Assembly (NCBI RefSeq): GCF_000006405.1
Contig: NW_003215385.1
Span: 32,180 to 96,179, forward strand
Source: Perkinsus marinus ATCC 50983
Taxonomy: Eukaryota > Perkinsozoa > Perkinsida > Perkinsidae
DNA length: 64,000 nucleotides
Direction of reading: 5' to 3'
Position numbers and translations under genes: made by a program. Below the pieces are notes generated by a model. It made no database searches, was not told where the DNA came from, and worked only from the letters and a program-made list of their open reading frames with translations. Below, piece by piece: positions 15,487-63,742 of the stretch (positions within the stretch are counted from its first letter, which is position 1; each line of letters begins with the position of its first letter).

Positions 15487-17301
15487 CCGTTAGTGCGGCG
15501 TTTTTGTTTTTGCTATTGGCCTCCCTTCACCTACCCTCCCCTTCACCTGCTAGGCTGGCCCCAGCGAGGCATTAAGAGAACCACCTCCTAGCGGTATCGC
15601 ACAGGCAGCTTTGCACCAGTTCTACTGAGTCGCGGCTTCAAACGGTTCCGGTTCCTCTGATGACTCGGCGTGGTGTGAGGTCTATGTCTTCTATTGTACT
15701 CCGTCGGAAGCTGTGGGCGGCCAAAAGGAGAGTTGGTAGGCGTCTCCACCGGTTCTTCAATACCCTCTATGATACGTCTACTTATCCCATTTTCGATCGA
15801 AACGACGCCACTACGACTTCTACTGTTCCTACAACCATCCACCATGACGAGATTCGCATCCTTCAAGTTAATGTCCGGGGCATACGGAAAAACCTTCCCC
15901 TTCTACAAGGGCGTGCTCTCTCCTCTAAGGCGTCGCTTGTTGTTGCTTGCGAAACGATGATAGACGACTCAGTTGAAAGTGGCTCTCTCTCTTTGCCCGG
16001 CTATTCTCTGGTTACCCGTAGGGATCGTACTTCTCATGGTGGTGGTCTCCTAGTCTGGGGTAAATCAGTCCTAAACGTTACTGAAGTCGACTGTGATTCT
16101 ACGGCGGAATGTTGCTGGGTGCTCGTGGCAACTGTCATCGGTAACATCTGCATCCTATGCGCCTATCGTCCTCCTAACACTACTCATGTCGAACATTATC
16201 TTAGGAGATCCTTTCATAAGGTCACGGTTTTTAATCCTATTTGCGTTCTGGCCGTTGGTGACTTCAACAAGCACTCCTTGGATAGCCTCTTCTCGACTAC
16301 TCGAAGTCTGGGTCTTTCGCAAATCGTCCGTGAGCCGACTCATATACACGGTGGTACTCTTGATATGGTCTTCACCAACTCTGATACCCACTGTATTAAG
16401 GCCAAAGTTGATCCTATTGAGGCTCGTATCTCGGACCACTCGTGTGTTGTCACCACTATTCCTATCACACTGACGACGGACTCATCCCGGACCACGCGAC
16501 CTGGCTGGGACTTTAGGGTAGCTGATTGGCCTAAGTTCCGTACCTATGCTTGCTGTAAGTTGAGGAGAAATCTTTTCTCTAATGGTTCTCCCGATAATGC
16601 TGTTGAGCACCTTCAAGCAGTACTCCGCGCTGGTCTACGCAACTTCGTCAAAGAGGTTCACATACCTACCTACCAAAACTCGGTTCCATGGTGGGACGAG
16701 ACCTGTACAAGCGCTTTTGCCTCTCTGCTGAGAGCCTCTTCTACCGATTCTCGAGATTCTGCTCTTCAGCTCATAGAAGCTAAGCGGTCTGGTTACTGTG
16801 ACTCTGTTCGCTCTAAGCTCGTTGGTGGTCGACTTTCGTGTAAGCAGTTTCATCGTCTCGCTAAAGAACTCTCGCTGAGCACCAAAGCTAAGTCTTGCGC
16901 TATTCCCCCTTTGGAACTGAGCCCTGGTGTTCTCACTACTGACGATGCGGCTAAAGCCGAAGCGCTGGCGAAGCATTTCGAATCAAAGATGATACTTCCC
17001 CCCGTGTCCGCCCCCTTCAAACTTGGTGATAGGATCGCTGACGCACAATCCATCACAACCTTACGCGTTGACCCTTGTGATGTTAGGAGTGTTCTTGAAC
17101 GACTGAATGTCTCTAAAGCTGCAGGTCCTTCCTGTATCGGCCCTAGGGTTTATCGTGAATTGGCTGGTGTTCTAGCCCTCCCTCTCTCAAGACTCTACAA
17201 CAACATCCTCCAAAAGGGTCTATGGCCAAGGGCTTGGAAGACCTCCAACATTTGCCCCATCTACAAGCGGAAATCCAAGCGTGATGTTCGCAACTACCGT
17301 C
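15487..17301 (+). mobile_element. Non-LTR retrotransposon (LINE) with AP endonuclease and partial reverse transcriptase
   Basis: One open frame (from about 15.66 kb) holds an apurinic-endonuclease domain: an RILQVNVRGI start, then CETMIDD, GGGLLVW, CAYRPPN, VGDFNKHSLD and, at the end, ARISDHSCV with the D-H pair of the active site. After a linker of about 250 residues comes the start of a reverse transcriptase: KAAGPSCIGPRVYREL, WKTSNICPIYKRKSK and RNYR, typical of Jockey/CR1-type LINEs. The frame runs directly into 100 N, so the catalytic RT motif (YxDD) and the 3-prime end are missing from the assembly. No frameshift or stop is seen in the visible part, so the copy may be young. The 5-prime junction is near 15487. 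Confidence 0.88.
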
Positions 17302-17401
17302 NNNNNNNNNNNNNNNNNNNNNNNNNNNNNNNNNNNNNNNNNNNNNNNNNNNNNNNNNNNNNNNNNNNNNNNNNNNNNNNNNNNNNNNNNNNNNNNNNNN
17401 N
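17302..17401. other. Assembly gap of 100 N
   Basis: Exactly 100 N, the usual placeholder for a gap of unknown size. It cuts the reverse transcriptase domain of the element to its left. Confidence 0.99.
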
Positions 17402-17852
17402 AAGCGTGTACTCTCCAGGCTCTGTCCATCCCAGTCAGCAAGCACTACCCTTCCACCTGCTAAGAAACGTTTCCTCACTAAGCTCCCACCAGCTCAGTCT
17501 GTGAACAGTTCGCATCAATTAACCGTCATCGCCCACAACATTCACATCTCGAAGATGAAATCAAACGGAACTCCAGTTGGAGGAATAGCAACCACTCGAG
17601 TGTTTACAAAACTGCCTCCCTCCGGTCACCAAAATATCTGCACTTCATCGTCTGGAAGCAGCACGGCAGTTGTCAATTGAAGGCGAGAATTGTATACTAC
17701 TGCTGCAACTGGGAGGGTCGATCGCAAATTTAATAAGTTACCATCCGTAGTTAATCCGTATAAAACCATGGTACCTTATAGTTTTCATACGACCCGAATG
17801 TGTTGGTTTAAGTCTGTTAATCTACTACATTCCTCTACAGAAAGGTGTTGTT
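17402..17852 (+). repeat. Flank duplicated at 15044-15486 (right copy)
   Basis: Near-identical to 15044-15486. It starts immediately at the N gap and continues past the point where the left copy is interrupted, so it reads as the uninterrupted version of the same locus. Confidence 0.8.
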
Positions 17853-18344: not shown

Positions 18345-18762
18345 TACATTGCGCTCGATCAATACAGGTAAACTGAGGATCGTATCTCTATCCGTCCCGG
18401 ATAGGGATAAGCACTCATCTCGAGTACAAGCTGATAGCTACGCCGGCATACGAGTACGATGACCACATGATCCTCTCTCTAATGCTCAGCCGACTATGAC
18501 AACACTAGCAGGACAAGAGTTTCTTGGCCAGTTAAAGAAGATCGCCTTTGTGATTATATAGATTTGAAGAATCACAATAGGCCCATTATTTGTAGCAATG
18601 GTACAGTGCGAATATTGAACCCCGTTTCCTACATCGAACGCAGCATCATAGACTTCTGCAGCATACCGCCAATTATCCATGGAGTTGCTTTATAGCAGGA
18701 AAGACATTGGAAACATACATCGCAAACGTGTACTGTAGGAAGTACACAAAAATATCGTATAA

Positions 18763-18834
18763 GCCTTCTGCCGGAGTTGAACCGACGACCTCCCGCTTAC
18801 TAAGCGGGTGCTCTACCAACTAAGCTAAGAAGGC
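18763..18834 (-). tRNA. tRNA-Thr (anticodon AGT)
   Basis: A complete 72-nt cloverleaf reads on the minus strand. The 7-bp acceptor stem is GCCTTCT with AGAAGGC. The D-arm contains AGTTGGTAGAGC. The anticodon stem CCCGC/GCGGG closes a 7-nt loop TTAGTAA, giving anticodon AGT. The T-arm is GTCGG-TTCAACT-CCGGC. A run of five T lies about ten bases past the 3-prime end, a good Pol III terminator. No intron and no enco​ded CCA. It stands alone between unannotated stretches. Confidence 0.97.
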
Positions 18835-20739
18835 TTACAAAAGTTTCCTTCTGCCTGACTTCACCCGTATAAAACATATTATCCTCATAAACGTCTGATG
18901 TCAACAATCAACCCTGATTCAGCAGTCTTAGTATATGGATTTGCGCGACTGACTAACACAACACTCCCGTCCTTGATAGTCAATATGGGAGGGTATCGCA
19001 GTTATCATCATCGATGCGCTTCAAATTCAACCCTCTATAGAATCCCCTCAGGAGAATATTCTGGATATTTATGGACAGCCAATGACGGTCGAGCTCGTCT
19101 CAACATGCATGGAGCTCGACAAGGCGGAGCTAGCTGACCACTGCTCTGGAGAACACCTCAGCGGCATCACGCGGATGATATCAAATCACTGTTCTTGCAA
19201 CAATAGCGAACATTATGGCAACATGTCAATCGTCTTCACGTGTGCAAATCTCGAGTGGAGAGATTGACGAGATTTCTGATTAGCATAAGACACTAGTAGT
19301 CATACTACCATACTGAACGACAATCCGCAAATCAAGGTTTGTTGATAGAATGCGTGAATGCTAATACTAATACGTTCTTTCTCTCAGGGTAGACCGTTTT
19401 TACGCCAAATCTCTACAAAATAGAAAGCCTCCGCCTGTCTCCTCGACCACCACGTACTCATGAGCAACGGCATAGGATGGTGGATCAGTGCAATAATCGA
19501 TGACCAGGGCGAACATTACTCAAATCCACTGACCCGCTAGTAAAGACAAAGTGCAGCAGTTAGATAAATAATAATGGAAACCAAGAATAGTGATAACCCT
19601 TGAATATGCAGTCTCATGAGTGGGATGCAAGAAAGTGTATCACAGTCGGGACCAACATTATCAACTTTGAATGGTTTATATAGAAATTATGGGAATGATG
19701 TCGAGACAAGTTGGGGGAGCCCGTTATGAGAAATAGGGCCTAGAGAGAGACAGTAAGAACTACCAATACTATTCTGAGGCTATTATTTCGGCGGCATCAT
19801 CACTGTGAATAAGTTGCATGCTGTAAAGTATATTGAGCACTTGTTCACTTAGTCGCACGGCTAGCCTCCCGAACAACCTCTACTGCAGAGGGAAGCGAAC
19901 GAGCTCCTGTAGTAGGCATGCTATAGCGACTAAGAGACGTTCTGCAGGGAGCTTACATTCAATACGTGTGGACCATCTTCCTGTAAGCTCTCGCTTCGGA
20001 ATGTTCTCTCATACACAACAAGATCCCAAGCAGTGATAGGACCGAACTCGGAGACTGGACGGCCACTGAACCAATACAGAGTACATGGACGGAGAAGCTT
20101 CACTATCCCTCACAGCTTCTCCCTATAAAAATTCAAAAGCTTGGTGCCTTCCTCTCCCATCCGGTCTTTGGCTAGAGTAAGATGAGCACGCTTCTTGTAT
20201 CGGATGCCATCTGAACAGTAGTCACTACCCCAATGAGAGGCCACAGATAGTCACCTCTAATACAGCCGCTGAGGACCGAGCGAACTTCGTATAATACTTT
20301 ATCATAACTGACGCTCAACAAGACGCATCTGAAGAGCGGCTTTAATTTTCCCTCAGTCCGTCTATCCTAGAATGCCTACCCATCCGGCGACAAGAGGAGT
20401 TCTTCCACCTCCACAGGGGCCACGGCGGCGGCACTCGTCTCGAACGACGACTATAGTTACGACCATTTCAAGCATGGATAGCCTCCAACACTACAGTGTC
20501 GGCTTCCTTCTCCTGAGATCCGTCAACACCAACAACCTTGACTGGTGACACTGAGCATCCCGAGCTCGCGGCAGTCACCTATGATGGAGATCTTGAGGAG
20601 GAAAGGCTCAGAATATTAAACACGTTAAACGCGACCGACGTCCCTTCTGAGTGACGTGTTTATCAGGACTAGGGCATTCAACACGATCCTTGAAGACTCT
20701 TCGTCTCGTTCCTCGATTAAGAGAGGTAGTCACTCTGCC
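18835..20739. other. No gene recognised
   Basis: Several short frames occur on both strands (longest 79 codons at 18.9-19.1 kb, plus strand) without motifs or supported splice joins. Exons of an unknown gene may be hidden here, but I cannot support one. Confidence 0.4.
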
Positions 20740-22514: not shown

Positions 22515-24314
22515 TTATAAGTCTCCACCCTCATTCTCTTCATAGCCAATCTCCATGACTCTAACAATGCCATCACCGCCGCCCACAGCCACCAACTCCG
22601 GTTCCGTGGACTTCCCAGAGGAGAAGTCAACTGTGAAGCATCCCTTGTCCACACCTGGCACAAGCCTTAATTCGACCCCACTGATGGCAGCTAACCTGTT
22701 AATGTCCCCAAAGTCCTCCAACCAGCAGATTGGTCCCCTGAGCCCTTGTCATTGTGCAGTATCTTAGCCTCATTGGCACCGCTTCCACCAGCACATATGA
22801 ACTCTCCCGATCGATGCCCCTTGTTAAACTGTGCTGCATACAGCATGCATGGTTTAGTAACAGAGGCCTAAGGCTAACGGAATACACACATTAGTTTATC
22901 GAGGCAAAGGCCAATGAGCAGCGTTGTAAGCCAGAGGTAGCTCACCCCGCTCCGCCAAGGTATATCCTCAATAAGGGTCCCTTCAGCGTAATCCCAGATC
23001 TGTAGCTGTCGGTCAACCCTCCAACTACCAGTCAGGATACGTTTCCCATCATTGGTGATGTCAACACTGTCACCGCAAATATGCGGACCTGGGAGGCATT
23101 CATGCAATGCCATTAGCTGAATACCGAGGACCACCAAAAATTACTGGAAAACGCACCGGAGGGCGAATCGAACGCCTGCGCCTCCCGACGCCCCAGGATT
23201 TGAAGTCCTGACCGAGCACCAGCCCGGGTCACCAGTGCACCATAGGAAAAAATCCACTACTTTACGCCGCCCCGACCCACCAAAGATTGAGCGCACGCTA
23301 TGTCCCTTCCTGATATCCCAAAACTGCACTGTATTATCCCAGCCGCCAGTAATGATCACGTTTGGGTCTTCTGGGTGATACCTAAGCACCGTGTAACCAT
23401 AGCTGTTCATCCGTTGAAACACCCATTCACTTGAGACTGAAGACTCTATTAGAATGACCAGGAGTATGTAGACTATCTCCACCCTTCAGTGTCGTGATCA
23501 GCGCTTTCGTGTTCTCATCATAGACGGCTACTCCTCTAACTCGAACACTCTAACATCCTTTGAGTAGTTATACCACCTCTCCCTCCCTGCTGTGGCAAAC
23601 TGACTTCCATCAGGGGAATAGTCCACACAAAACAGTTGATTCCCATCTTCGGTGAACTCATGCATGCATGAGGCGCTTGTCACATGCCAATGTGATACCT
23701 ATCACTTCATATCAGATAACTTATGATACTCAAGGCCATACCACTCCTTCTGCATTTACACTGACTAGGACATTCTGAGTCTTCGCCGAGCTCCCCATAG
23801 GGCGCCAACGGATCTGCGTAACCGGTTGTATGACTTCACCTGGCACAAGGCTTCATAGTGGTCTAGTGCTCTGGCAATATACCTGTACGGGGCGACTGTA
23901 GGGTGTAGATTTCCTTCCCATCCCGGCAGTTGTAGATCTTAATAAGGCCATTACTAGTAGAGACAGCCAACAGGGTGTTATCCGGGGAGAATCGGACACA
24001 GAAGACCTACCACTCCTTCGACAATTTACCCGCCATCTACATCACCCCACCTCAGCCGGTTGTATATACTCCTCGACGACCTTCCTACGACGCCCACTCT
24101 TGATGCCAGGACTGACCACCTGAGCCACCAATTCCCCCTGAGGCGAGCCCTGAGCTGTAGAGTTACGAATTTAGGAGTGAGTATACGACTATCAGTGTCG
24201 TTAAAGTCGACTACAGTCTCATTGGCGCCTAACAGACAGTCTCAATATCACCCCAGCTAGCAGCAATGTCTCACCAAAACTTGGTGGATGCTCAGTGGCT
24301 CCCGAGGAGGTCAT
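22515..24314 (-). CDS. WD40-repeat protein hosting an intronic tRNA-Sec
   Basis: Exons join from an ATG at 24314 (short Ser/Thr-rich leader) into a multi-blade propeller. Blades seen: FCVRFSPDNTLLAVSTSNG then IKIYNCRDGKEI; LFCVDYSPDGSQFATAGRE then VAVYDENTKALITTL; YHPEDPNVIITGGWDNT then VQFWDIRKGHSVRSIFG; PHICGDSVDI then ILTGSWRVDRQLQIWDY; a late blade with FICAGGSGANEAKI; and a final ELVAVGGGDGIVRVM. The series S-V-R-S-I-x-G-P-H-I-C-G-D occurs in a group of protist and ciliary WD40 proteins (recalled family knowledge, not tested). The intron at 23089-23280 splits that motif and contains a complete tRNA-Sec gene in sense orientation. Several other introns are 40-70 nt. Function is unknown; a cytoskeletal or ciliary scaffold is possible. 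Confidence 0.8.
23152..23238 (-). tRNA. tRNA-Sec (anticodon TCA), inside a WD40-gene intron
   Basis: The 87-nt length matches eukaryotic tRNA-Sec. Acceptor stem GCACTGGTG pairs with the 3-prime end over 9 positions with one mismatch. The long 6-bp D-stem is CCGGGC/GCTCGG with the loop TGGT. The anticodon stem CAGGA/TCCTG closes the loop CTTCAAA, giving TCA. The long variable arm GCGTC/GGCGC has a GGGA loop. The short 4-bp T-stem encloses TTCGATT. The discriminator is G, followed by TTTT as a terminator. It lies in sense orientation in the intron 23089-23280. Its presence implies UGA-Sec decoding in this organism. Confidence 0.95.
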
Positions 24315-35612: not shown

Positions 35613-35699
35613 CGCACCGGAGGGCGAATCGAACGCCTGCGCCTCCCGACGCCCCAGGATTTGAAGTCCTAACCGAGCACCAGCCCGGATCACCAGTGC
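35613..35699 (-). tRNA. tRNA-Sec copy 2 (anticodon TCA)
   Basis: Differs from the 23152 copy at only two positions (linker AC to AT; first anticodon-stem base C to T, giving a T-G wobble). The 9/6/5-bp arms, long variable arm and TTTT terminator are kept, so it may be functional. It lies in copy A of the duplicated unit. Confidence 0.9.
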
Positions 35700-35819: not shown

Positions 35820-37370
<1,551 letters not shown>

Positions 37371-51122: not shown

Positions 51123-54100
51123 CTATAGAAAGCTCCCTACATTCAGGAATGTGTTCTTCACCGACACAGGCACTGCAGCGCTGCCATCTCCTTGGTCGTA
51201 GGAACTACCCTTCGGACTGCTAGGATCAACCGAGCCTCCGAAAGCCGCATCACTCGTGCTAGCATTCATCCCCAACATTTGTTGTTGCCAATCAGATAGC
51301 CCAGTCAGGTATCGACCTACAATCAAGAGTATCACGATGGCCCCTCAGAGCCCCCACCGCCTACTGGGGTCTTCCAGATGAGCCATGCTGCCCGGTATCA
51401 CATCGTCTAAGACAGATTTATTGCCACCACCACTGGACGTGTCTTGTGATGGCATTCTTGTAAAAGAGCCGATACCAACAGCAGCAGCATCGCCACCTCC
51501 CATAGCCATCCTCGACCCCAGATGAGGACAATGCCCCGTACCTACACACAGTGACATACTGCGACAGATATAACCGAGGAAGTGACAGCGTACATGGCTG
51601 AGGGTCCACTTCAATAACACCATCCAAGACTAGCATAGGTGATAGGGAGGCATCATGGATAGCAGGAGCAGTAGAGACACCTTCAAACCATGCTGGTGAG
51701 TTGTTCATACCTGCCATCGCCGACCTAAGGACCTCCTGTGGTACTACCGCCGCTCATTACCGGCCTCCCTAAAGGACCATCTCAGACGTCCCAAGTCATA
51801 CTTGGTTACCTTACCACAAGTACAGTTCTCGTCGTCCACTCTCATCACCTGAATAATAGCATCTCGTCGAGGAAGCTAGCAACAACTTACAAAAAGCATA
51901 GCTGCAATCCTGGTGAAGGAGTCCTTCAATGTAGGCAAGTCCCTCGACTTCTTCGCCAATGCCGTCAACACATTAGCATAGTCGTGAATACAGAACGTCG
52001 TCACTTGCTTCACACAGCACTCCGCCAGCTCCTCCCATAGTGACGCATCACCATAGGCCGTATTGGCTAGGGCCCACATGGAGTTCGACAGACAGTGAGG
52101 GGCCAACTCAGGAGCATCATCACGGAGCTTCCTCGCGCAGGCTTCAATCTGATATACATCCTATGGCCAGTGTGGGAGAATATGCATATGGTCATCTACC
52201 AATAAAGTAATTCCGCTAAAAATCATCGTTAGTTTCCTACCCCGAGTCTTGTGTGAATTTTCATTATCTACCGAACCAATTCCTAACCTCCTAAGCTGAG
52301 GAAGAAAACATACTGGATATTACCAAATCCGGGTAGTCCTCAGTCTGACCCATCCTAACGACACTCCACAAACATAGGGAGACACTCTGTGCCGACAAGC
52401 TAGCGAGGTCATCACGCAGTACATCACATATCTCCTCGATGAGTGGCATCACCTGTGAGTAACACTACTCAACAGTAATAGCCTCGGTACCTTCCTCACT
52501 GAGTTAGAACCCGTATGGCCGAGTTTGACGATACCATGTAGGATCATCGCCGCGTCCTGAGCTGCTAGACCAGTAGTAGAGTTAATCAGATTAGCACGGT
52601 CGGCTAAAGCGTCGATGGCACAGCAATCACAAACGCCCATTCTCCCATAGGCGCTCAAGATGGTCGCTGAGAGAAGGTGAATAGTCAATACCACGCCTTC
52701 ACCACTTCGTACATATATCAGCTATACAGAATCGGAAGCTCTTAGACTTCACGTAAGCTGCCGTGGCATCAACCAACTGGGGGTCCTTTGCAGCCAGATC
52801 CATGCCCATGTATGCTAATGCCCATAGACATGTGCCTGAGCAAGGGATCGAACCTCTGCGGGAAATGATCATATGGGTTCTTCTCTCACTCAGTTGAGCC
52901 GGTGAGTATTTATCAAGATGTTCATCCAGTTGCCTTGCTATAGCATCACAACATACCGAGTCGTGATAGCCGAGTTTACATAGTCCCCATGCTGCTGAGG
53001 TCAGATCTTCACAAGTGAACCTGAGCATAACACCGGCCCTACTACTACTATCACTGCTTCCCCCTCCTCAAACTACTTGGACGCAAACTGTGCAACATAA
53101 ACTTGGCATGCTGCGATGAGGTCATCATGTTTTATGCCAACACGACCAAAGGACTTCAGAATAGTGGCAACATCTTGAGGATTGAGCCTTCCAGCCTGCG
53201 CATGCGTGCATACCATCTTTCGTCCAACTCCTATACAAACTACTCTTACCTGTGCGTGCATGAGAGCAACATATCCACAGCGCTCGAAGACCATCTTCAC
53301 ACGAGATCGATCCGATATGTGAACGACCAACCGACTTAGTCCCCACAACGTCATGGACAGGTCCTGGGGATTGTACTTATCCGCTTGGGATAAAATCTGA
53401 GCACAAGCGAGCGAAAAACAATGATAAGGAATCTTTGCGCACAGCGAAGAATATCGCCGAATAAGGCCAATAACAGGGCCAAGGGATGGGCAGTTTTATT
53501 ACTCTATCGCAGACCGCACTGAAGTCGATACCCTCATACCAGTCGATCTTGGCAAAGGCCCAAATCGATCGAGAGATGTCTTGGGCTACATACACCGACA
53601 GATGCTTACAGAGGTACCTGACCAAGACGACCCTGATGGTTGGGAATTGGGGATGGCGAGGTCCTACGTGACTTCAGCACGTAAAAACTCCGCCTCATTT
53701 AATCCAACCTTCACATGCGCCCACAACATTTGTACAGCAACCCGAGGGGTACCTACAAAAATGCACCATCCGGGGATCGAACCCACGCCCTCGTGTAATC
53801 CTACTCCCAGCCAGACGGGGTGCAGCGTAAGCGCACATATCCCTAACAGGACCATCATAACCCAGCTTCCCGCACTGCTCACAGATGCCCGTGAGAATTG
53901 CCAAATCCAGACCAGCATCACTCTTGGCCTACAGCCACCACCATGACCGCAACGACCTCAGGGCCTCCTTCCCTACATGCTCCGTCGCGAAGACTCTCTG
54001 CAGCTCATGCGTTATCCACTCCAATGCATTGCTTGTAGCTGCTTTATTGCCACTTGTCATCTTGCGTAGTTGTCTAAACCAACGAGGCAAGTCCCTTGAG

Positions 54101-54853
54101 GGCAGCGAGCCCGCAAAGAGGAGAGGACACCCGACCCGCCCATTACCAACCTCAGAACGTTATGGAGGTCTTCATCGCCGGGGTCCCGGTCCGGCTGTGG
54201 GGGCGTCTGCTGCTGCTGTTGTTGCCTCCTAAATGGTGGGGTCTGCGATCGACGAGCATCTGATAGGCGCCTTCAGAAATATAACAATGACGCTGAGGAT
54301 GAGGCCCCTCCTACAAGGAGCTACACTCCGCCCCACCACACATCCACACGACCGTCCAGGTATTCAGGAGGCCGAAAATTACCGCGCGCCCCGAAATTAT
54401 CCCACTCACTTCTCCCTCCGTGATTTCTTCCACCATATCCCATCTGTTGTTGTTGTTCTCCTGGGGAGTGTGGCCCATGCCCCAAGATGCTTGAGCTACT
54501 CGGAGGTGCTTTTGGTACGCCCGCCGTCGAGGAGGAGGAGGAGGAGCTTTGGAACTAAAACAAGAGTATTCCTGCCCTGAGGCCTCGTCCATCATCATCG
54601 CTAAAGCCCACGAGTGCAGCATCACTCCGCTTACAAGGTTGCTAAAAAATCCTCTGGATTCTGCTGGTCGCTGCTGGTTGGGCACACCAGCTGGCATCAT
54701 CCTCATTGGTGTTGTTGGAGGGCCACCGCCAGCAGCACCCAGATGATACTGCTCTTGTTGTTGATGTGGGCTGTTGTTATTCCTCCTCCCACGACTATCC
54801 CCATCTCCTTGTCGACTACTATTACCGTGGTGGAAGGGCAGGGAAAAGGTCAT
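51123..54853 (-). CDS. Octotricopeptide-like (OPR/FASTK-type) helical repeat protein
   Basis: The ATG at 54853 opens an Asn/Gln/Pro-rich leader. After several introns a chain of at least ten alpha-helical repeats of about 38 residues follows, each with the signature L-W-[AGS]-x3-[LMV]-G: ICEQCGKLGYDG, LWAHVKVGLNE, IWAFAKIDWYE, LWGLSRLVV, LKSFGRVGIKHDD, AWGLCKLGYHD, LWALAYMGMDL, LSAYGRMGV, LHGIVKLGHTG, LWSVVRMGQTED and MWALANTAYGD. It ends in a Ser/Gly-rich tail at 51123. This pattern is that of OPR/RAP-associated RNA-binding repeats in algae and alveolates, which act on organelle RNAs (established knowledge). No RAP domain was recognised. Two introns (52836-52889 and 53753-53816) contain tRNA T-arm sequence. 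Confidence 0.8.
52836..52889 (-). other. tRNA-derived intron (54 nt)
   Basis: The GT-AG intron contains GGTTCGATCCC (tRNA B-box/T-arm) followed by CTTGCTCAG. The donor GTGAGAG follows exon sequence GGCTCAACTGA, which together resembles a tRNA D-arm. Removal joins two OPR repeats in phase (SPAQLS to TCLWALAYMG). Confidence 0.75.
53753..53816 (-). other. tRNA-derived intron (64 nt)
   Basis: The intron starts GTCTGGCTGGGAGTAGG, contains GTGGGTTCGATCCCCGG and ends GGTGCATTTTTGTAG. The last exon bases before the donor are GCACC, which pairs with the intronic GGTGC, so the 5-prime acceptor strand of the tRNA lies in the exon. The anticodon arm is shortened. Removal joins the frame into LWAHVKVG of the OPR protein. 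Confidence 0.82.
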
Positions 54854-55106
54854 GACTATATAATGAGGATTGTAATACTACTATGATCGATAACAGCCAC
54901 ATACCCATGAGGAACGTCAACAGCTCGTTAAAGTAACAGAAATTACGAACAAGATCATCAATTTTCACTACCATTATCAGAGACACTCGAGCCTTCGCTA
55001 ACATCAGCCTCCACCAAGTCTATTGACTCGTTCATGCTCCTCCCCTCCCCAGAATCTGCACAACAATCCTGGAAAATATTTTCATCTTCCTCAGTAGACT
55101 TCCTCA

Positions 55107-58100
55107 CTAATTATACAACTTTACACATGAATTCGGGTACAGGTGTATAGAAACCAATAAAATTTCCTCACAATTGTCAACAACACATGTAGTTGAGCAT
55201 GTGCATATTTCTCCCCACACTCTCCTCCACACCTTACCTTCATCTCGGCTACCCAACTGGGCATCCCCCTCATCCGGCCACCCCACAGGAGTCGATGCCC
55301 CCACCCACTTAGTGTCACTAACAGTAGGTGAGGTTACCCAACCCTCATCATCCTGCCCAGACGGCCACTCCACTAACCCACCGCCGCTACTGCTGTTGTT
55401 GTTGTTGCCCCCCTGCCCCTCCGGCACCGGCCAACCACCTGGCGTACCCTCAGAGTCAACCCAATCACTCGGGACAGGGCCGGGCCATTCAGGTGTCGGC
55501 GCCCTTCCCGTCGGTGACCGAGACGTATCATGATGCGAACCAGCTTGAAAGAACTCGGGTGAGTCTAAGGAATCATCTCCTAGCATACTCCCAGTCGACG
55601 GGGTGGTAGAGGCAGCAAGAGGCAGCAGAGACGATGATGTTGAGGGTAGAGAAACTCCTGGACGACCTGAGACCATATGTCAACTAGGCCTCACTATACA
55701 CTCTCGATAAGACATGTATCATCACCGCCTTCTTCCACACTCCTCGGTACAGCTATGGTCCCTCCTAGGTCCAACTTCATGCCTCTAGACAAACGCCATC
55801 TAGATAGGTAAGCCTCGGCAGCTGGGGACTCCACTGCTAGCCTCGACACTCCCTGATACCCAGTAATGAGCGGAGCGATGCTTCAATGACACCAACCTTG
55901 TCGTTGTCTTCAAGTGAGAGGACTATCTCGGCTATTTGAGGTCGACATCTGATACAAGATATTTGTGGTAAAAACGACACCTGTGGGATTCGAACCAGAG
56001 ACCTCCTACCCCATAGACCTCCCTCCCTCTCCTGCCAGACACTTCTCCACAGCTTCCTTCTCGCATACCAGGGCATCAGCAATAACTCCCTTCCCCCCCA
56101 ATTGGCCCAATGCCCTACTCAGCTCGAGGACTGCGTTTGCCAATAGTGAGCACCGAGAATGCCGCGCTATCGTAGCATCCAAAGCAGCCACCATAAACTC
56201 CTGGTCCACGAGTTTATCCACCTGACCCTCGCCACCTGACGCCGCTACTTCATTCGAACAAGCTGTCATTGCTGTCATGACAAGGCATATAACCTGCCGA
56301 GATTATCCACGCCACACTAGATGATCCTCCCCACCTCAGTGAGCAACTCCACATCTTCCTCAGCCCCCTTGCCCTCTACTATCATCCTCAACTCATCTAT
56401 CTTTGCATATACACATTCAGCGACCCTTCGAGATGGTGCCGAAGACATAGCACTATCGACAATAGTAGGAACCCCACTACCACTCGGTGTGGATGCCTGA
56501 CACATACACTCGATGACTTCAGCGTAAACCACTTCCTTAATAAAGCAAACAGAAGAGTAAACGATACCATCCATCCTCCAACACAGCCGAACTGCATCAC
56601 AGGAGCCCAGTATTCATCAGTGATGTCATTTCATGTGCACTAGAGGCTACGTCGTAAGACCAACACGGACGCAAACAGCTATCATAGTCCCTAGTACGAT
56701 GCTACGAATTCTCACCACATAGCAACAGAAGTCGTCGTCGCCTCCATCACAATCATTTGCACAACCCTCCTCTGCAACATCTCCTCCAGACTCCTTCAAG
56801 TTGAATAACAAACTAGTAACAGCATTAGCAGCAGCGCCCATCACAGAGGTGATCTCCTGCCCCGTCACAATGCGACATACTAGACGATCTGTCTGTTCCA
56901 CAAGACCCTTGGCCAACCGCGGTATGTACACTGGCTTGGCATCTTCCGATGGGCATTGATCTGATAACAACAACAAATCAATAACCACTCTTAGGTCGAC
57001 TGTCCTCAGTCCCATGCCCACCCTTACGTACAGCATAGGAGCTTCTGTAGTAGCTCAGCACAGTTCCGAGATGCTTCCTCGGTGTTGGCCGCCGTCTCGC
57101 TACAAATAACATCCACGAATTCGCTTGCGTCTAGCCTAGCAAAAGGTACCTGTCAGGACAACAGCATGAACATAATAAGTTCGACGCATTGCAGCTTGGG
57201 CGATGAAATGCAGCGAAAACGAAAATCAACGCATCCGTTTATTAAATTTCAATACTATTGGACCAATGGCCGATATTTTAGTCTACATATTCAACACGGT
57301 CTGCCTGCGCCTATGAAATCCTAATAACGTATGACCTGCCTCGCAACACGTATCAATGACAACCTAACGAACGATGAAAAGGATGAAGGAGTGCACGGCT
57401 GAATCCCTCGAGCGACAAGCCTAACCCTGTTCCTACAGCTGCCTCATCAGTTGTCAGTAACATGGTATACAAAAGCTCACATGTCGATAGGTCATACAGT
57501 AGTGCCAGAAATGCGGTCTTCAATGATGCTTCCATGCTCTCTGAGGACAAAATAATAATCAAAATTACCAACGCACGCGTGCACAAGCTCGACACTCATC
57601 GAATGTGCTAATGATATCAACTGAGAGTGAACCTACTTGTTATATTCGCCACTTCAACAGGACGCTTCTCAAAAATATTCTGAGAAAAGGTGTAAAATTC
57701 CAAGACCAAACCTCGGGTAGTAGTACACTGACGGCTCGGGACATGTAGCCTGATATCACACAATTCATCGGTTCTTCGCACTCTGACGCCAAGACGTACT
57801 GAAAAACACGAGAATCAACTCTAAGTAATCCTCCTGAAGATGAAAATACGCTCATGGTTATGAAAAATGTGGGAAAATTCCGAGAGAATTTTCTCAGTTA
57901 TTGTACACTTCTACCTCAGGTCACCTGTAACCTCCTAAAATCAGCTGTAATATATTTTTGGAATATATACAACACCGGGCACATGTCCAAGACATTCACC
58001 AAGTTTACCGCTTGCAACAGCTCCTTCAACGCAGACCATCCAGTAGTAGCATCCTCATGGACCCAGGCGTCCAGGAAAATATCATTCTCACAGCTGATAA

Positions 58101-59251
58101 GCTCAACGCATACGTACGGTAGAAGATATTTTCCTAAAACATGATCATATCCTTAGCGGAGCGAAGCCGTCCCCCTACCTACGAGTATCGGACGATCCAC
58201 CTGGTGGCAACTGAGTGAGTATCTTCACTATACTTTGCAGACTAGACTGAAAACAGATCTCCTGTCTGCTACTAACACAGACGCATTTCCTTCTCTACCT
58301 TCTCACAAAGCCTGTCCACCAACTTTGTCGATCCCGCCCGTAGTTCTTGCACGACTTCATCATTACTTAGTATTTCCTAACATCAACAATCCACAAAAAC
58401 TCCAGCATATCACGCTACCAACCTCTGTAGTGGTAAGACTGCCCTTCTCCAACAAATCATCCAGCCTTCCGAAGGAGGAGTTACGCAACCAGCTATTACC
58501 TCGGGACGCCCTCGTCGAGAAGAACGATCCCGCTCCTATGTATTCCATCAGTTGAGATTGATACAAAAAAACTGACTCTCGCACAGCAATAATAAAACCT
58601 CTCAGCGACAACTACACTCGGAAGAAATTCTTCAATGACCTGTGCGGATCTCGTTCGTATGCAGCTATCAAGACACTCAAACTCAATAGCCAAGTTGAAG
58701 TGGTGGAGAGACGACTGTAGAGGAATCTCCCATGAAGCAGCAGTGTTGGTCAATTTAGGTTCATGCCTGCAGGTGTTGCATCTCGGAAACGCCACGAATT
58801 CATCCCAATCCGGCTCCGTAGCAAAACCATACCTTCCTCAAACAGTGGGAATTTAGCCTGAGAAAAGTACATCTACCAGGATTCGAACCAGGGAGAAACG
58901 ACTTGAATCCCCCCAACACTTTAACCGGCCATGGTCTCATACAGAACGACATACCACACCTTGTTTACTTCCTATCGTCATAGTGGCAATACCCATCGGC
59001 ATCAGCCTCAGGATGATACTTCTCATCACATCCAACATGACAATAACATCCTCGCTGATGTCACCTGGTAGTAAGAATCTTCCCTGTGCGCTAAGATACC
59101 TTCTTATCACTTGCGGTTTACACAAAAGACCCATACCCTCCTGATCAGCATCGATCCTCACGGTCACCGAGGGAGACATGATAGCAACGTCACTAGTCAG
59201 GTCGATCCGTTGGGGAACCGACGACCGTACACACGAAAACTGCTCCTCATG
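55107..59251 (-). CDS. Large ARM/HEAT-like helical protein, many exons
   Basis: Minus-strand exons: 58.96-59.25 kb (SDVAIMSPSVTVRIDADQEG, then DVIVMLDVMRSIILRLM), 58.0-58.1 kb (WSALKELLQAVNLVNVLDM), 57.04-57.15 kb (ASRNCAELLQKLLCC), 56.72-56.95 kb (IPRLAKGLVEQTDRLV and NAVTSLLFNLKESGG), 56.32-56.55 kb, 56.01-56.28 kb (NAVLELSRALGQLGG), 55.85-55.95 kb (AEIVLSLEDNDKVGVIEASL), and a last Ser/Pro/Trp-rich part at 55.25-55.68 kb. The repeated helix pairs suggest armadillo/HEAT folds. No named family is assigned, and I am not certain that all exons belong to one gene. The true N-terminus is upstream of 59.25 kb and unresolved. Introns at 55949-56009, 58858-58959 and 59252-59355 contain tRNA-like sequence; the one near 55.13-55.24 kb contains repeat family B. 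Confidence 0.5.
55125..55240 (-). repeat. Intronic dispersed repeat, family B
   Basis: On the minus strand: ATGCACATGCTCAACTACAT, then TGAGGAAATTTTATTGGTTTC and TATACACC. It follows a GTGTGG donor and ends near an ATTAG acceptor, so it fills an intron. It shares ordered words with the copies at 33.7, 34.4, 36.3 and 61.3 kb. Confidence 0.6.
55949..56009 (-). other. tRNA-derived intron (61 nt)
   Basis: Starts GTAGGAGGTCTCTGG, contains CTGGTTCGAATCCCACAGG, then CGTTTTTACC and ends TTGTATCAG. The donor is the GGTAG of a D-loop-like word. Removal joins RSMG to CRPQIAEIVLS in phase. Confidence 0.8.
58858..58959 (-). other. tRNA-derived intron (102 nt)
   Basis: Contains, in order, an A-box-like word (ATGGCCGGTTAAAGTG), a shortened anticodon region, and CCCTGGTTCGAATCCTGG (B-box), then ACTTTTCTCAG. 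Nearly a whole tRNA-like unit is inside the intron, in sense orientation. Confidence 0.82.
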
Positions 59252-59355
59252 CTAGGCTTGACCAACGCCTGAAACACCCCCTCTGGGAATCGAACCCGGG
59301 ACCTCGGAAGCACTCATCTATCTTTACCGGCTACACCACATCCTGGTGTTTGCAC
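59252..59355 (-). other. tRNA-derived intron (104 nt)
   Basis: Contains GATGTGGTGTAGCCGG (A-box-like), then about 40 bases later GTCCCGGGTTCGATTCCC (B-box). Two possible acceptors follow, GTGTTTCAG and AAGCCTAG; the second keeps the frame of the next exon. The donor GTGCAAAC lies upstream of the tRNA-like part. Confidence 0.78.
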
Positions 59356-59786
59356 GAACTCCCTAGCCTGAAAGGCGACATATTTTGAAGTCGAAATATG
59401 ACCATCGTACCTATCAGATGTTATCCAACAGCACTTCCACGAATTCTTCATCTCTACCCAGGATCATACCGGCATCCCTCTGGATCCAAACTCAAGATGC
59501 AAGATGCATCGCTCCGCTAGCTCATTGCAATATGTTTACTCATCCTTCCCAACGGGCCCTACCACGATACACGATGACCCCAAAGGATCCCCACATTACT
59601 TCTCTCCCCAGACCACATGTTTTTAATACACTCTTCGGATTGTTCATGATGAGGACTATGAACAACAATAAGAACTACATCAGGGACGATGATACGACGT
59701 GCCGAATCACCAACGCAACTGCTATGGTCGAGGCGAAACTTGTCAAGTGGGTAGATGACAACGTGATGAACAGGTTGGAAGAAGAC

Positions 59787-61499
59787 TCAGTTTTCGAACT
59801 TAGAGTTTGGCGTTCGTGGGCTCGCCATAACTTTCATCCTCTCCTCATCCATACTAGCATTGCTTTCTGGAACACTCAGTAGACTCTCCGTGAACGTGAA
59901 CTTCTCCTCCTTAGGGACCTGAAGAAAACAAAATGCACTCACCAGGGATCGAACCCACGACCTTCCTCTCTACTACCAATTTCAGCAGTGGCAAACGCAT
60001 CAACAAGGCCACCAGATAAATATAAGCCGTCACAACGAAGGTATATCGATAATCATGGTTATCCATCAGATACCCTCCTATCACCGCAGACCCCGACCAG
60101 GTCATAGACGATAGCGACTCCAAGGCGTTCCACCTCCCCCTTTGGTGAGATGGTACGAAGTCCATAATGATCGATCGATCAACCGGGTATATCGCATTCT
60201 GGACCGCCCCTCTGAGTAAGAAGGTAAAAACAACGGCGGGCAACCAGCGGACCCATGCCAGACAGAAGAGGCATATAACACCAAGAGTAGAGAAGAGGAT
60301 TCCAGCTTGGACTCTACCCACATGATTCGCTACTTTATCACAGAACCATGTGAAGAGCCCAAAGGTGAGCCCATAGAAGGCCCATAGGAGCTGCACTTGA
60401 GTCGGCGAGAAGTTATAGTCGTTTTTGAAGAATAGTGGGAAGAACTTCACAGTCATCCCGGCGCCTATACATGTGATGAAGTCATTCGCACACATCAGAT
60501 ACGGTATTGTCCAGGTCCACTCTGATGTGGTCTTACGATATACATGCGCCCCTGAAAGACGATTTGCGATAACAGTAGGTCACGACACTCACCTGATCGG
60601 CCTGCGTTGCCACCGAGGCCATCTTCATGGGTTACATCAGTCCATCCAAAGAGGAAAAAATTGGCAGGGATGAACCCGAGAAAACCAATGATGAGCACAG
60701 TGTGCAGCACACTTAGTCGCCACTCATTACCAAAGTATACGAACAGGAAGAGACCAATAAATGGTCCGAGCCCCGAGGCCAACTGATTCACCACTGATGC
60801 TCGCGTTAGCCACTTAGCACGGTGACCCTGAGGGATGGAGTCTGCGAAAAGGGAGTAGGTCGCGCAGTTCTGTGTTGCGAAGTAGCCACCAGCCACAGCT
60901 AGGGCGAAGCATATGACTATCATCTGAAAAAGAAAGGTAGACGATGAGTAATACCATGGCTACTTACATTGTCATAGTATATACCACATATTGATAACAC
61001 GACCATGAGCAAGGAGAACCAACCACACCATCGACATATCAGGGCTCGAGAGAACCTATCATCGTGGGAATACCCTCTAGAGGAGGCACCCCTAATTTTA
61101 CTTATCGACCAGTATGCCTGCTGGTATGGCAACAGAGACTTGACTCAACCCAGAGATGGACTCAGCCCATCCGACAGCTTTATTAGAGTCCCCAGCCATA
61201 ACGTAAAGATATGCATCGAAGATACCCATCTGCGCGATGGCTTGACATATCCCCTGCAGAGCTGAGTACCTGAGGAAAGCGTCTCCTCAACTGAGCTCGT
61301 GAGTTTCTATCTACACGATTTTGGGTATACAAAATCAACCATAATAAGTAGTTGACCATGTGCATATGAAGACGGATGTGAAACAGGTAATATCCTACAT
61401 AAGCATGTGATAGATGTTCTTCTTGCATGCCTTTTCAAACTCCTCCTTATCCGTAATCGGAGAGAGGACCTTGTGGCCTAGATGGTTCGTAATGGGCAT
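59787..61499 (-). CDS. Major facilitator superfamily transporter
   Basis: A probable first exon from the ATG at 61499 encodes a hydrophilic leader (HKVLSPITDKEEFEKACKK). Exon two (61.14-61.28 kb) begins the membrane part: SALQGICQAIAQMG, then SISGLSQVSVAIPAGILVDK. Further exons give TM segments with FSLLMVVLSICGIYY, MIVICFALAVAGGYFA, ASVVNQLASGLGPFIGLFLF, LHTVLIIGFLGFIPANFFLF, then in the second half AFYGLTFGLFTWF, ILFSTLGVICLFCLAW and FTFLLRGAVQNAIYPVDRS, ending with TM VTAYIYLVALLMRL and a hydrophilic tail to a TGA at 59787-59789. This is an MFS-type 12-helix layout; the substrate cannot be inferred. The intron at 59919-59976 is tRNA-derived, and the first intron (about 61.29-61.41 kb) carries repeat family B. 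The join of exon one is tentative. Confidence 0.8.
59919..59976 (-). other. tRNA-derived intron (58 nt)
   Basis: The exon ends AAATTG and the intron begins GTAGTAGAGAGGAAGG, so donor and exon edge together read TTGGTAGTAGAG, a tRNA D-loop. It continues CGTGGGTTCGATCCCTGG, then TGCATTTTGTTTTCTTCAG. Removal joins the last MFS helix to its tail in phase. Confidence 0.85.
61300..61410 (-). repeat. Intronic dispersed repeat, family B
   Basis: On the minus strand: CATATGCACATGGTCAACTAC, then TGGTTGATTTTGTATACCC and GATAGAAACTCACGAG. It is closest to the 55.13 kb copy. It lies in the first intron of the MFS gene. Confidence 0.6.
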
Positions 61500-61971
61500 A
61501 CCCGATAACCAAAAACAACTGCTGCTAGCCTCTATAGAGTCCGCGCATACACGCATTGTGCAATTCTCGCTGCGCCCTGGTAATCGATTATTGTCGTCGT
61601 CGTGGCTACCTCTACAGCGCAGCACCCCTATACACGATTAAGGTGGCGGCTGCTTTAAATGGGGATGGCCCATCCTAGGCGTGGTAGAGTAGATGATAAC
61701 AGGGCAAATCTCAGTGTGCTATGAGAGGAGATTTCGACTTCTCCATGGTTTGACAAATTCTGGACTGATTTAGCGCTCGCCCAGTAAGTCATAACAAGGC
61801 GACGCACTGGTGGAAGCTTAGACCTTGACAATAAGCCTCCCCTGGCCGCACTAATATCTTCGCAAGCTTGGTCAGCTAAGGCTGATAACCGAGACTACGT
61901 TAGGCGTGTAGTTCTCTCGCCACATCTCCGGTCTATCGTCTCTCAGCCACCCTTTACGTTATATATCCAAA
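61500..61971. other. Divergent intergenic region, MFS and Dbp3-type helicase
   Basis: No supported coding exon. It should hold both promoters. No defined regulatory motif is assigned. Confidence 0.4.
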
Positions 61972-63742
61972 ATGCCGGAAGCTGTATCAAGGAAGAGAAC
62001 TGTGGATGCTGCCGTCGGCAAGCCTAGCCCTCCTGAAGTCATCTATGGGGACTCCAAGATAGAGGTTGCTGGTAACTGGACATGGAATAGGTGTACCACT
62101 CGTTATCCACATCTCAGGTCTATCAGACCCCACTGAGGTCCCTCTCGCACGGACATTCGAGGAGTCAGGTCTTCGGAAGTCCTTAAGGGCTTATCTTAAG
62201 GACAAGTTCGCGACCCCATCGGCCATCCAAGCAGCGTGCTGGCCCCTCCTTCTCTCGGGTCTAGATGTCATTGGTGTTGCCGAGACGGGTAGCGGTAAGA
62301 CCCTCGGCTTTGCGTTGCCTTTCATGTCAAAGGCCATGCAGAAGGGCGATGATAGCATGATGATGGTACTCTCCCCTACTAGGGAGCTCGCCAGGCAAAT
62401 CCATGAGGTCATCGTGGATGTTGATAAGAAGAAGCAGAAGCTTCCTTCGATCTGCCTTTATGGTGGTACGCCTAAATGGGAGCAGCAGAAACAGTTGAAG
62501 GCTGAGCACCCTAGGATCGTTGTTGGTACTCCCGGGCGAGTCTTGGATCTCCTCCAGGACGGCTCTTTGGACTTATACAAGGTCAACTATGCTGTTCTTG
62601 ATGAGGCTGATAGAATGCTGGACATGGGCTTCCTACCTAGTGTCACGGATATCTTTGGGTATCTCCCATCGCCCGATAAGAGGCAGTCTCTTATGTTCTC
62701 AGCTACTTGGAATAAGGAGGTAGTAATGCCTTTGGGGAGCCTTCGGACGGCAGGTGGGAGTTTAGGTACGGAGGCTGTCGAGGAAGCTGATGAAGCGCGA
62801 GCGGATAACAGTGACGGTGATGGGAAGTAACGAGACGAAGGGCAATGAGGATGAGCTCACAGCCAATACACGAATCACTCAAACTATCGATATCGTACAG
62901 GACAGGAAGCCTAAGATGAATCGTCTGTGGTATCATCTTGGCAACCTTTGCCCTAACAAGGGAGTTTGGAAAGTAATATTGATAATACTAACGGGGAGGG
63001 GCACTCATCTATGGGTAAATCTACACTGTGCGTAGATATCTATACCCTTTCTGATGGAGTAGCTCGTACTTGTACTGTGGATAACTTTGTCTGCTGTCGT
63101 AGGTGATCGTGTTTGCCTTGTACAAGAAGGAGGCAGCGCATCTGGAGAGGACCCTTCGGGACTATTACGATGTTGTTGGCCTCCATGGTGACATGACGCA
63201 GATGGCCCGTGAGGCTTCTATCAAGAGGTTTACGGAGGGTCAAAACCTCATCCTGGTCGCCACTGATGTCGCGGCTAGAGGGCTCGATGTTAAGGACGTT
63301 ACGGGAGTCATCAATTATACCTTCCCATTGGTCATTGAAGATTATGTTCATAGGTAGAACATGGTCATGGGTTCGATCCCTGGGTAGGGCATTTTTCTTA
63401 GAATTGGTCGTACTGGCCGAGCTGGTCGTACTGGTAATGCTGTGACTATCTTTAACGCTGATGAAGAGAAGCAGTTCGCCTTCGACCTTAAGGGCCTTCT
63501 AGAACGTTGTGGACAGCCGGTAGTACCAAAGCCTTTTCTCACGAGCTTATAGGAAGGTACTTCTCTGCTGGTAGGTGTCTGAAGGGCTCGCTAAGTTGGC
63601 TAACCAAACTGGAGGGTTCAAGGCCAGCAAGAAGAAGGTGCATCCTATATATGGAGCGTTCTTCAAAGATGAGGAGGAGATGGCTAAGTTGGAAGCTAAG
63701 AAAACTCACGTTACTTTTTCCGATGATGAGGATGACGATTAG
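61972..63742 (+). CDS. DEAD-box RNA helicase, Dbp3 type
   Basis: Likely acts in nucleolar rRNA processing. Starts at the ATG at 61972; intron 1 is 62072-62117. Motifs in order: Q-motif [15 protein letters not shown]; motif [38 protein letters not shown]; motif [13 protein letters not shown]; motif III SATW (typical of the Dbp2/Dbp3/DDX5 branch); [48 protein letters not shown]; motif [15 protein letters not shown] across the tRNA-derived intron at 63354-63401; then [16 protein letters not shown] and an acidic end at a TAG at 63740-63742. The FALYKKEA series and the motif-VI region are close to yeast Dbp3 (recalled family knowledge). Other introns begin near 62716, 62975 and 63518. All catalytic motifs are present. 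Confidence 0.93.
63354..63401 (+). other. tRNA-derived intron (48 nt)
   Basis: Begins GTAGAACATGGTCATGGG, contains GGGTTCGATCCCTGGG and ends GGGCATTTTTCTTAG. With the last exon G the donor reads GGTAGAAC, close to the tRNA D-loop GGTAGAGC. It interrupts the helicase motif VI exactly between HR and IGRTGR, so the splice is certain on protein grounds. Confidence 0.9.

Follow-up and report, generated by a model that had tools for sequence, protein, structure and literature searches.

How do introns of unrelated genes come to carry a piece of a transfer RNA (tRNA) gene? This question is raised by a 64,000-nt stretch of the genome of Perkinsus marinus ATCC 50983 (contig NW_003215385.1, positions 32,180 to 96,179; C66:32180-96179 in our contig numbering and referred to below as the window), in which seven short intron-like segments had been proposed, from the letters alone, to carry the T-arm word GGTTCGANTCC and to belong to a tRNA-derived intron family. 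The T-arm of a tRNA gene holds the TFIIIC B box. The proposal (hereafter the sequence-only reading) was followed up in the window and, by genome-wide searches, in the 54.46-Mb assembly (347 contigs), where the same pattern read backwards served as the control for pattern counts. The best explanation that we can offer, at a probability of roughly 0.55, is an introner-like family of very short spliceosomal introns derived from a tRNA or from the tRNA-like head of a short interspersed element (SINE), in which an RNA polymerase III (pol III) terminator would serve as polypyrimidine tract and the introns themselves would have been gained.

The seven introns of the window

An exact search of the window for GGTTCGANTCC returned three matches (55986-55996, 58879-58889 and 59286-59296) against 0.11 expected, and the remaining four of the seven intron-like segments hold GGTTCGATCCC, which is one mismatch away. 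All seven segments do carry a B-box word in the sense of the gene-like frame, as had been proposed, although the proposed word itself is exact in only three. With one mismatch allowed, ten matches were found against 3.3 expected, comprising the seven segments, sites 954 and 45400, and a genuine tRNA gene for comparison. These features are given below, each with its evidence and, for the introns, with the position of the 35-nt module that surrounds the word.

63354-63401, plus strand: intron of 48 nt in motif VI of a DBP3-like DEAD-box helicase gene; module 63362-63396; homology to Perkinsus olseni protein P0001, and Helicase_C across the joined exons above cut-off
59919-59976, minus strand: intron of 58 nt (alternative donor 59973) in a gene like those of MFS transporters; module about 59929-59963; blind gene finder and open joined frame
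59269-59327, minus strand: intron of 59 nt (GTAAAG...TTTCAG) in a CHORD-domain gene; module about 59270-59304; homology to P. olseni protein P0121
58858-58968, minus strand: intron of 111 nt, the longest of the seven, in the same CHORD gene; module about 58863-58897; homology to P0121
55949-56009, minus strand: intron of 61 nt in the same CHORD gene; module about 55970-56004; homology to P0121 and joined frame
53753-53804, minus strand: intron of 52 nt in an OPR/FAST-like gene; module 53757-53791; intron score 18.3 sense, 1.5 antisense
52836-52889, minus strand: intron of 54 nt in an OPR/FAST-like gene; core word only, no T-run; open joined frame, intron score 18.6 sense, 3.4 antisense
18761-18835, minus strand: tRNA-Thr gene with a one-mismatch match, for comparison; ARAGORN and Rfam

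Splicing within helicase motif VI at 63.35 kb was borne out by homology, as P0001 lacks exactly the segment 63354-63401 (VIEDYVHR^IGRTG, with ^ marking the junction). The window helicase model is identical to the P. olseni protein at 411 of 495 positions (83%), and its exon pieces are 74-98% identical, with the lowest values for the short first exon and for the piece that includes the intron; on this comparison the window comes from a Perkinsus close to P. olseni.

The CHORD gene (54.9-59.4 kb, minus strand) is related to the P. olseni 'Integrin beta-1-binding protein 2', and comparison with P. olseni redrew two of its introns. The one proposed at 59252-59355 is better read as 59269-59327 (P0121 EFMKIPGCAV...GVGQA versus EFVQTPGCGVAG^VGQA in the window), part of the proposed segment being CHORD-domain coding sequence. 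The one proposed at 58858-58959 most likely starts at GTAAAC and extends over 58858-58968, where the joined frame reads HYDDRK^LNSHCLRKVWFCYGA in the window versus HYHDGKPIFHDLKKEWSCCGA in P0121. At 55949-56009, the joined frame GRSMGCRPQIAEIVLSLE matches GRPMGCRPQVAEILLSLE of P0121. Relative to P. olseni, its reading frame is broken twice, by an in-frame TAG that follows the 59269 intron and by a frameshift near 58.8 kb, so that the gene may be a degenerate copy or misassembled.

A full tRNA inside these introns was considered and rejected, the supposed tRNA 5′ half in 59252-59355 being CHORD coding sequence. The 111-nt intron at 58858 may resemble a class II tRNA (Leu type); a strict pattern for a class II tRNA gene found no match. 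An Rfam scan of 58800-60000 gave nothing but a sub-threshold transfer-messenger RNA (tmRNA) model match to the T-arm and sub-threshold small nucleolar RNA matches.

A homolog search for the OPR gene of the window found nothing. For its 53753 intron the donor at 53804 is the better one; the donor proposed earlier, 53816, lies 12 nt upstream and also leaves the joined frame open. A FAST_1 match (E 5.5e-5) spans the 52836-52889 junction and a weak MFS_1 match that of 59919-59976, both below the curated cut-off. The T-run that was said to follow the word in most of the introns is lacking from 52836-52889; in the family it is part of the shared module. Finally, a gene finder blind to the word, run on the window and on 200 kb of contig C34, predicted 105 introns. 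Three of them, each located in the window, hold the word, in every case in sense, although for one the acceptor is wrong. Of the other four window words, it placed one (53.8 kb) in an exon and three outside its models.

The 35-nt module and its copies in the genome

The extent of the conserved unit was examined in an alignment of 72 words, drawn from 40 fetched stretches (corresponding to 42 of the 87 matches of the 15-mer GGGTTCGATCCCTGG) and from other loci, and reduced to 67 non-redundant copies. Conservation in these copies is sharply bounded, setting in at –8 (AGGTC, eight bases before the word) and ending at +26 at a T-run; inside the 15-mer it is partly a selection effect, because 44 of the 67 copies came from stretches fetched for that 15-mer. 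On the general layout of tRNA genes, the module consists, in order, of the tRNA variable loop AGGTC, T stem, T loop, T stem, the 3′ strand of the acceptor, the discriminator A and TTTTT, a terminator of the pol III type. The intron copies thus carry a B box and T-arm, a feature of the tRNA-like head of a tRNA-derived SINE. Neither a 5′ half with A box nor a body or tail was seen in the 67-copy set, in which nothing upstream of –8 or downstream of +26 is conserved, and ARAGORN found no whole cloverleaf (0 tRNA genes in 40 loci). The intron copies are not similar end to end: their likeness is limited to the module and their donor side is variable. The proposed tRNA-derived family is upheld in that multi-copy introns of unrelated genes carry a sense T-arm, but its unit is a 35-nt 3′ end and not the whole tRNA. 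Two weaker module-like sites were also noted in the window, at 3580 and 45846 (both plus strand; 19.1 and 19.7 bits), the former antisense to a predicted intron.

Genome-wide, GGTTCGANTCC occurs 976 times (132 in the reversed control), GGTTCGATCCC 924 times (5), AGGTCNCNGGTTCGANYCC 424 times (0), and a 34-nt module pattern with at most three mismatches 121 times (0). The last two comparisons, together with the in-frame removal in well-conserved proteins described below, leave hardly any credit to the view that chance matches or misread introns account for the seven, even if several of the gene models are weak and one gene contains a stop as well as a frameshift.

The surroundings of the word were sampled systematically by taking 20 words, at every tenth place of two 100-place listings that hold the first contigs only. 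Three are ARAGORN tRNA genes. Four count as intron-like, L093 and L097 on the strength of homology and L096 and L106 on that of the intron model, and the other 13 are neither, some of them lying in SINEs; L101 was counted as neither, being repeat-like at a sense score of 10.8. The earlier statement, made for the window, that the word is not intergenic outside tRNA genes is accordingly true there but does not extend to the genome. Counts of tRNA genes are too low, since no more than 63 of 4410 first-look candidates were scored in the search with the tRNA model. Applying 4/20 to 1900 words would give an intron family of about 380 members with a wide error, perhaps several hundred.

Two copies, the second match of L067 and that of L091, do have a SINE 5′ half and body/tail, unlike the 67-copy set as a whole. 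Their common sequence spans about 310 bases and takes in a tRNA-like head with the 35-nt module. Starting at the module, L095 has more than 200 bases in common with them, body and CACGCACGCAC run included. A second repeat is represented by L001 and C34:42222, which share 313 bases at 91% and end in GCTCCGCTCGCTTCGCTCGCTCCGCAA. All of these, and likewise L002 and L103, are tRNA-derived SINE-like repeats about 310 nt long, in which GGCGGAGCTC lies near the start and which contain a B-box head and the CACGCACGCAC run. A SINE-head pattern matched 35 times genome-wide (0 in the control). When one representative sequence of each was compared, the intron module and the SINE module were identical at 29 of 35 bases, with the same order of parts.

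In the 100 listed of the 121 pattern matches, those with the fewest mismatches being listed first, variation between copies at nine core positions is about 7-fold lower than in the flanks (13/900 versus 187/1900). A core so much less variable than its flanks would also be expected if the motif were a functional signal of Perkinsus introns, whether for splicing or as a TFIIIC-bound chromatin element, that is selected in each intron. We consider this improbable: only three of the 105 blindly predicted introns carry the word, the module is also present in non-intronic SINEs, and the core changes in duplicated genes. In the glutaminase pair, four of 53 intron bases differ, two of them in the core (2/11 core bases), against 5/180 in exons. 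Between the DHX15 copies on contigs C52 and C263, six of 35 module bases differ, two in the core, against 31/203 in exons; between those on C52 and C69, the values are 3/35 and 3/203. A core that is constrained between copies yet changes in duplicated genes fits a constraint on the source rather than on copies once inserted; the B box would then be needed in the source, as in a pol III-transcribed mobile RNA, and be dispensable in the intron.

In-frame removal and orientation

Joined translations were searched against Protein Data Bank (PDB) chains and Pfam. Those of glutaminase and of dynein-2 heavy chain aligned across the junction with no gap, and that of DHX15 with one residue fewer at the junction; the joined translation of L097 aligned gaplessly to a ciliary protein of the CFAP251 kind (the best chain being named Adenylate kinase 7 and the next CFAP251). 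In the PDB search, a BRR2-like piece returned an irrelevant lectin only and a hydrolase piece nothing. Nine of the 15 joined pieces given to Pfam found a match, above cut-off for OB_NTP_bind, Glutaminase, AAA_7, Helicase_C and PSS and below cut-off for Response_reg, Abhydrolase_1, MFS_1 and FAST_1. Six found none, including the pieces that we take to be BRR2 (L032) and serine palmitoyltransferase (L042). Similar module sequence is therefore present in introns of many non-homologous genes, and the segments that bear it are predicted, on alignment of the joined translations, to be spliced out in frame.

Homology supports 13 introns, five of them weakly, namely those in the MFS, OPR/FAST, hydrolase and response-regulator genes (weak matches) and the one at 59269 (damaged gene). 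These 13 measure 43-111 nt (median 53), of which 8-76 nt (median 18) lie outside the module, a figure that is nominal for the 52836 intron, where the module T-run is absent. In 12 of the 13 the non-module part is 8 to 26 nt, and the dynein-2 intron leaves 8 nt. A median of 18 nt leaves little room for an older intron.

Orientation was assessed by scoring intron models on both strands of 83 contexts, left from 91 after removal of four duplicates and of four loci that contain tRNA genes, with the expectation taken from random places. The best model reached a score of at least 10 in 34 contexts in sense and in 6 in antisense, with 12 expected, and of at least 14 in 22 and 3, with 6.8 expected. 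In a first scoring of the 42 fetched matches, sense had exceeded antisense in 34, and 14 versus 0 lay above the random 90th percentile. By group, scores of at least 10 were obtained in sense versus antisense for 23 versus 2 of the 15-mer loci (n=43), 6 versus 0 in the window (n=7), 3 versus 2 in the systematic sample (n=17), 1 versus 2 on C34 (n=9) and 1 versus 0 among L001-L008 (n=7). The homology-confirmed intron of L097 scored 9.0, indicating that the intron score misses some. It is the 15-mer class and the homology-supported introns that carry the claim of a family.

Other features were noted in the window. Three near-identical tRNA-Sec genes lie within its 64 kb (23152-23238, 35613-35699 and 37149-37235 (-)); a DEAD-box helicase piece at 35.9 kb sits between two tRNA-Sec genes, and a similar piece is present at 42.1 kb. 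A long open reading frame at 15660-17522 (plus strand) looks by eye like the endonuclease/reverse transcriptase of a retrotransposon without long terminal repeats; a Pfam search gave no match.

Origin of the introns

In the explanation that we favour, the source would be a tRNA-like RNA transcribed by pol III, and most likely the head of a tRNA-derived SINE present in the host genome. The 3′ part of this RNA, up to the pol III terminator, would have been copied into genes by retroposition. In sense orientation the T-run of the terminator might act as a polypyrimidine tract beside an AG, with a GT located a few bases upstream as donor, so that the insertion would be spliced out and tolerated. 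That such an RNA has been an intron maker, with hundreds of Perkinsus introns arising from insertion of its 3′ end and reuse of its terminator, we would put at even odds.

Several results weigh against a tRNA- or SINE-derived introner-like family. Beyond the window and the 15-mer loci, 5 contexts score at least 10 in sense and 4 in antisense (n=33), and L089 and L092 of the systematic sample, both counted as neither tRNA gene nor intron-like, score high in antisense (19.9 and 14.6); the sense excess is seen in the 15-mer class and the window but not elsewhere. Of the sampled words, 16 of 20 lie outside introns. For many copies, intron status depends on a gene model that is small and home-made. 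With respect to tRNA descent, Rfam returned nothing from the tRNA family in 20 loci, its single match being to a tmRNA model below threshold (L101), T-stem covariation was absent (observed pairing equalling expectation), and none of 20 tRNA genes compared was an evident parent. With respect to insertion, no target-site duplication (TSD) was found in the 67 copies (mean best repeat 0.51 versus 0.59 in shuffled flanks), the intron part upstream of the module varies between copies in length and sequence, implying that the intron was not copied end to end, and no empty site, that is, a copy lacking the module, was found at 19 joined sites searched in the assembly.

The missing TSD would also fit independent capture of fragments of many tRNA genes as filler in double-strand-break repair, some of which then turned into introns, and flanks that vary more than the core look as if sources differed. 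However, real tRNAs pair their T stem while the module copies show no covariation, and the copies have a TGG/GGGCA consensus and their edges in common, which suggests a single source family and makes such filler an improbable origin.

The absence of empty sites bears on a further alternative, in which the introns are old and a tRNA or SINE-head fragment landed near their 3′ end, was kept mainly in sense as polypyrimidine tract, and was followed by loss of the old 3′ part. The duplicated genes that were found all keep the module (three copies of DHX15, two of glutaminase, two of a BRR2-like gene and, as judged by span and 34-nt pattern, two of L030), while other joined-site queries matched themselves only. 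Near-identical gene copies were seen on contigs C13/C79, C52/C69/C263, C162/C233 and C6/C243 (BRR2-like 96%, DHX15 C52/C69 98-99%), which suggests haplotigs or recent duplications in the assembly. Since no module-free copy was found at the 19 sites, there is room for insertion into existing introns; in addition, the 5′ intron parts are unrelated between copies, and insertion predates the split of DHX15 copies that differ at 31 of 203 exon bases. On the other side, a former intron would not fit into the 8 to 26 nt outside the module in 12 of 13 supported introns (8 nt in dynein-2), barring later deletions. We therefore regard old introns as a serious but rather unlikely account.

Compared with known systems, the family that we favour resembles introners in consisting of short, similar introns dispersed over unrelated genes. 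According to the main text of PMC9860276, introners of Micromonas, Aureococcus, Symbiodinium, Florenciella and others have family median lengths of 30-654 nt, some lack TSDs and terminal inverted repeats, some families draw both splice sites from the insertion site, and most are consistent with DNA transposition. The Perkinsus family differs from these in being built on the 3′ end of a tRNA, with copies that have no 5′ side in common and with a gain that is putative; the same main text contains no occurrence of tRNA or Perkinsus. Amoebophrya, likewise a marine alveolate parasite with repeated introns, has introners described in the consulted part of PMC7789003 as bearing repeats, both inverted and direct, and splice sites that are mostly non-canonical, whereas the Perkinsus ones are GT-AG and have no target-site repeat. 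Among the papers listed by searches of open-licence literature on introners, intron gain and SINEs, none describes, by its title and abstract opening, a tRNA-derived introner family. Relative to the tRNA-derived SINEs of the host genome, the module is the same, but the SINE has a 5′ half and body and the intron copies do not. A tRNA-derived SINE has reportedly become a spliceosomal intron in rice, as the p-SINE1-like intron of the CatA catalase gene, a single gene, whereas the Perkinsus introns form a dispersed family of tRNA 3′ ends without SINE body.

The origin of new introns is a long-standing question, and known introners trace mostly to DNA transposons (main text of PMC9860276). If our reading is true, a family made from tRNA ends adds a route of intron origin based on RNA polymerase III, in which the T-run of the terminator already resembles an intron 3′ end, so that a very small insertion could be spliceable at once. 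Orthologous genes across Perkinsus species and strains would make the question of intron origin testable within one genus.

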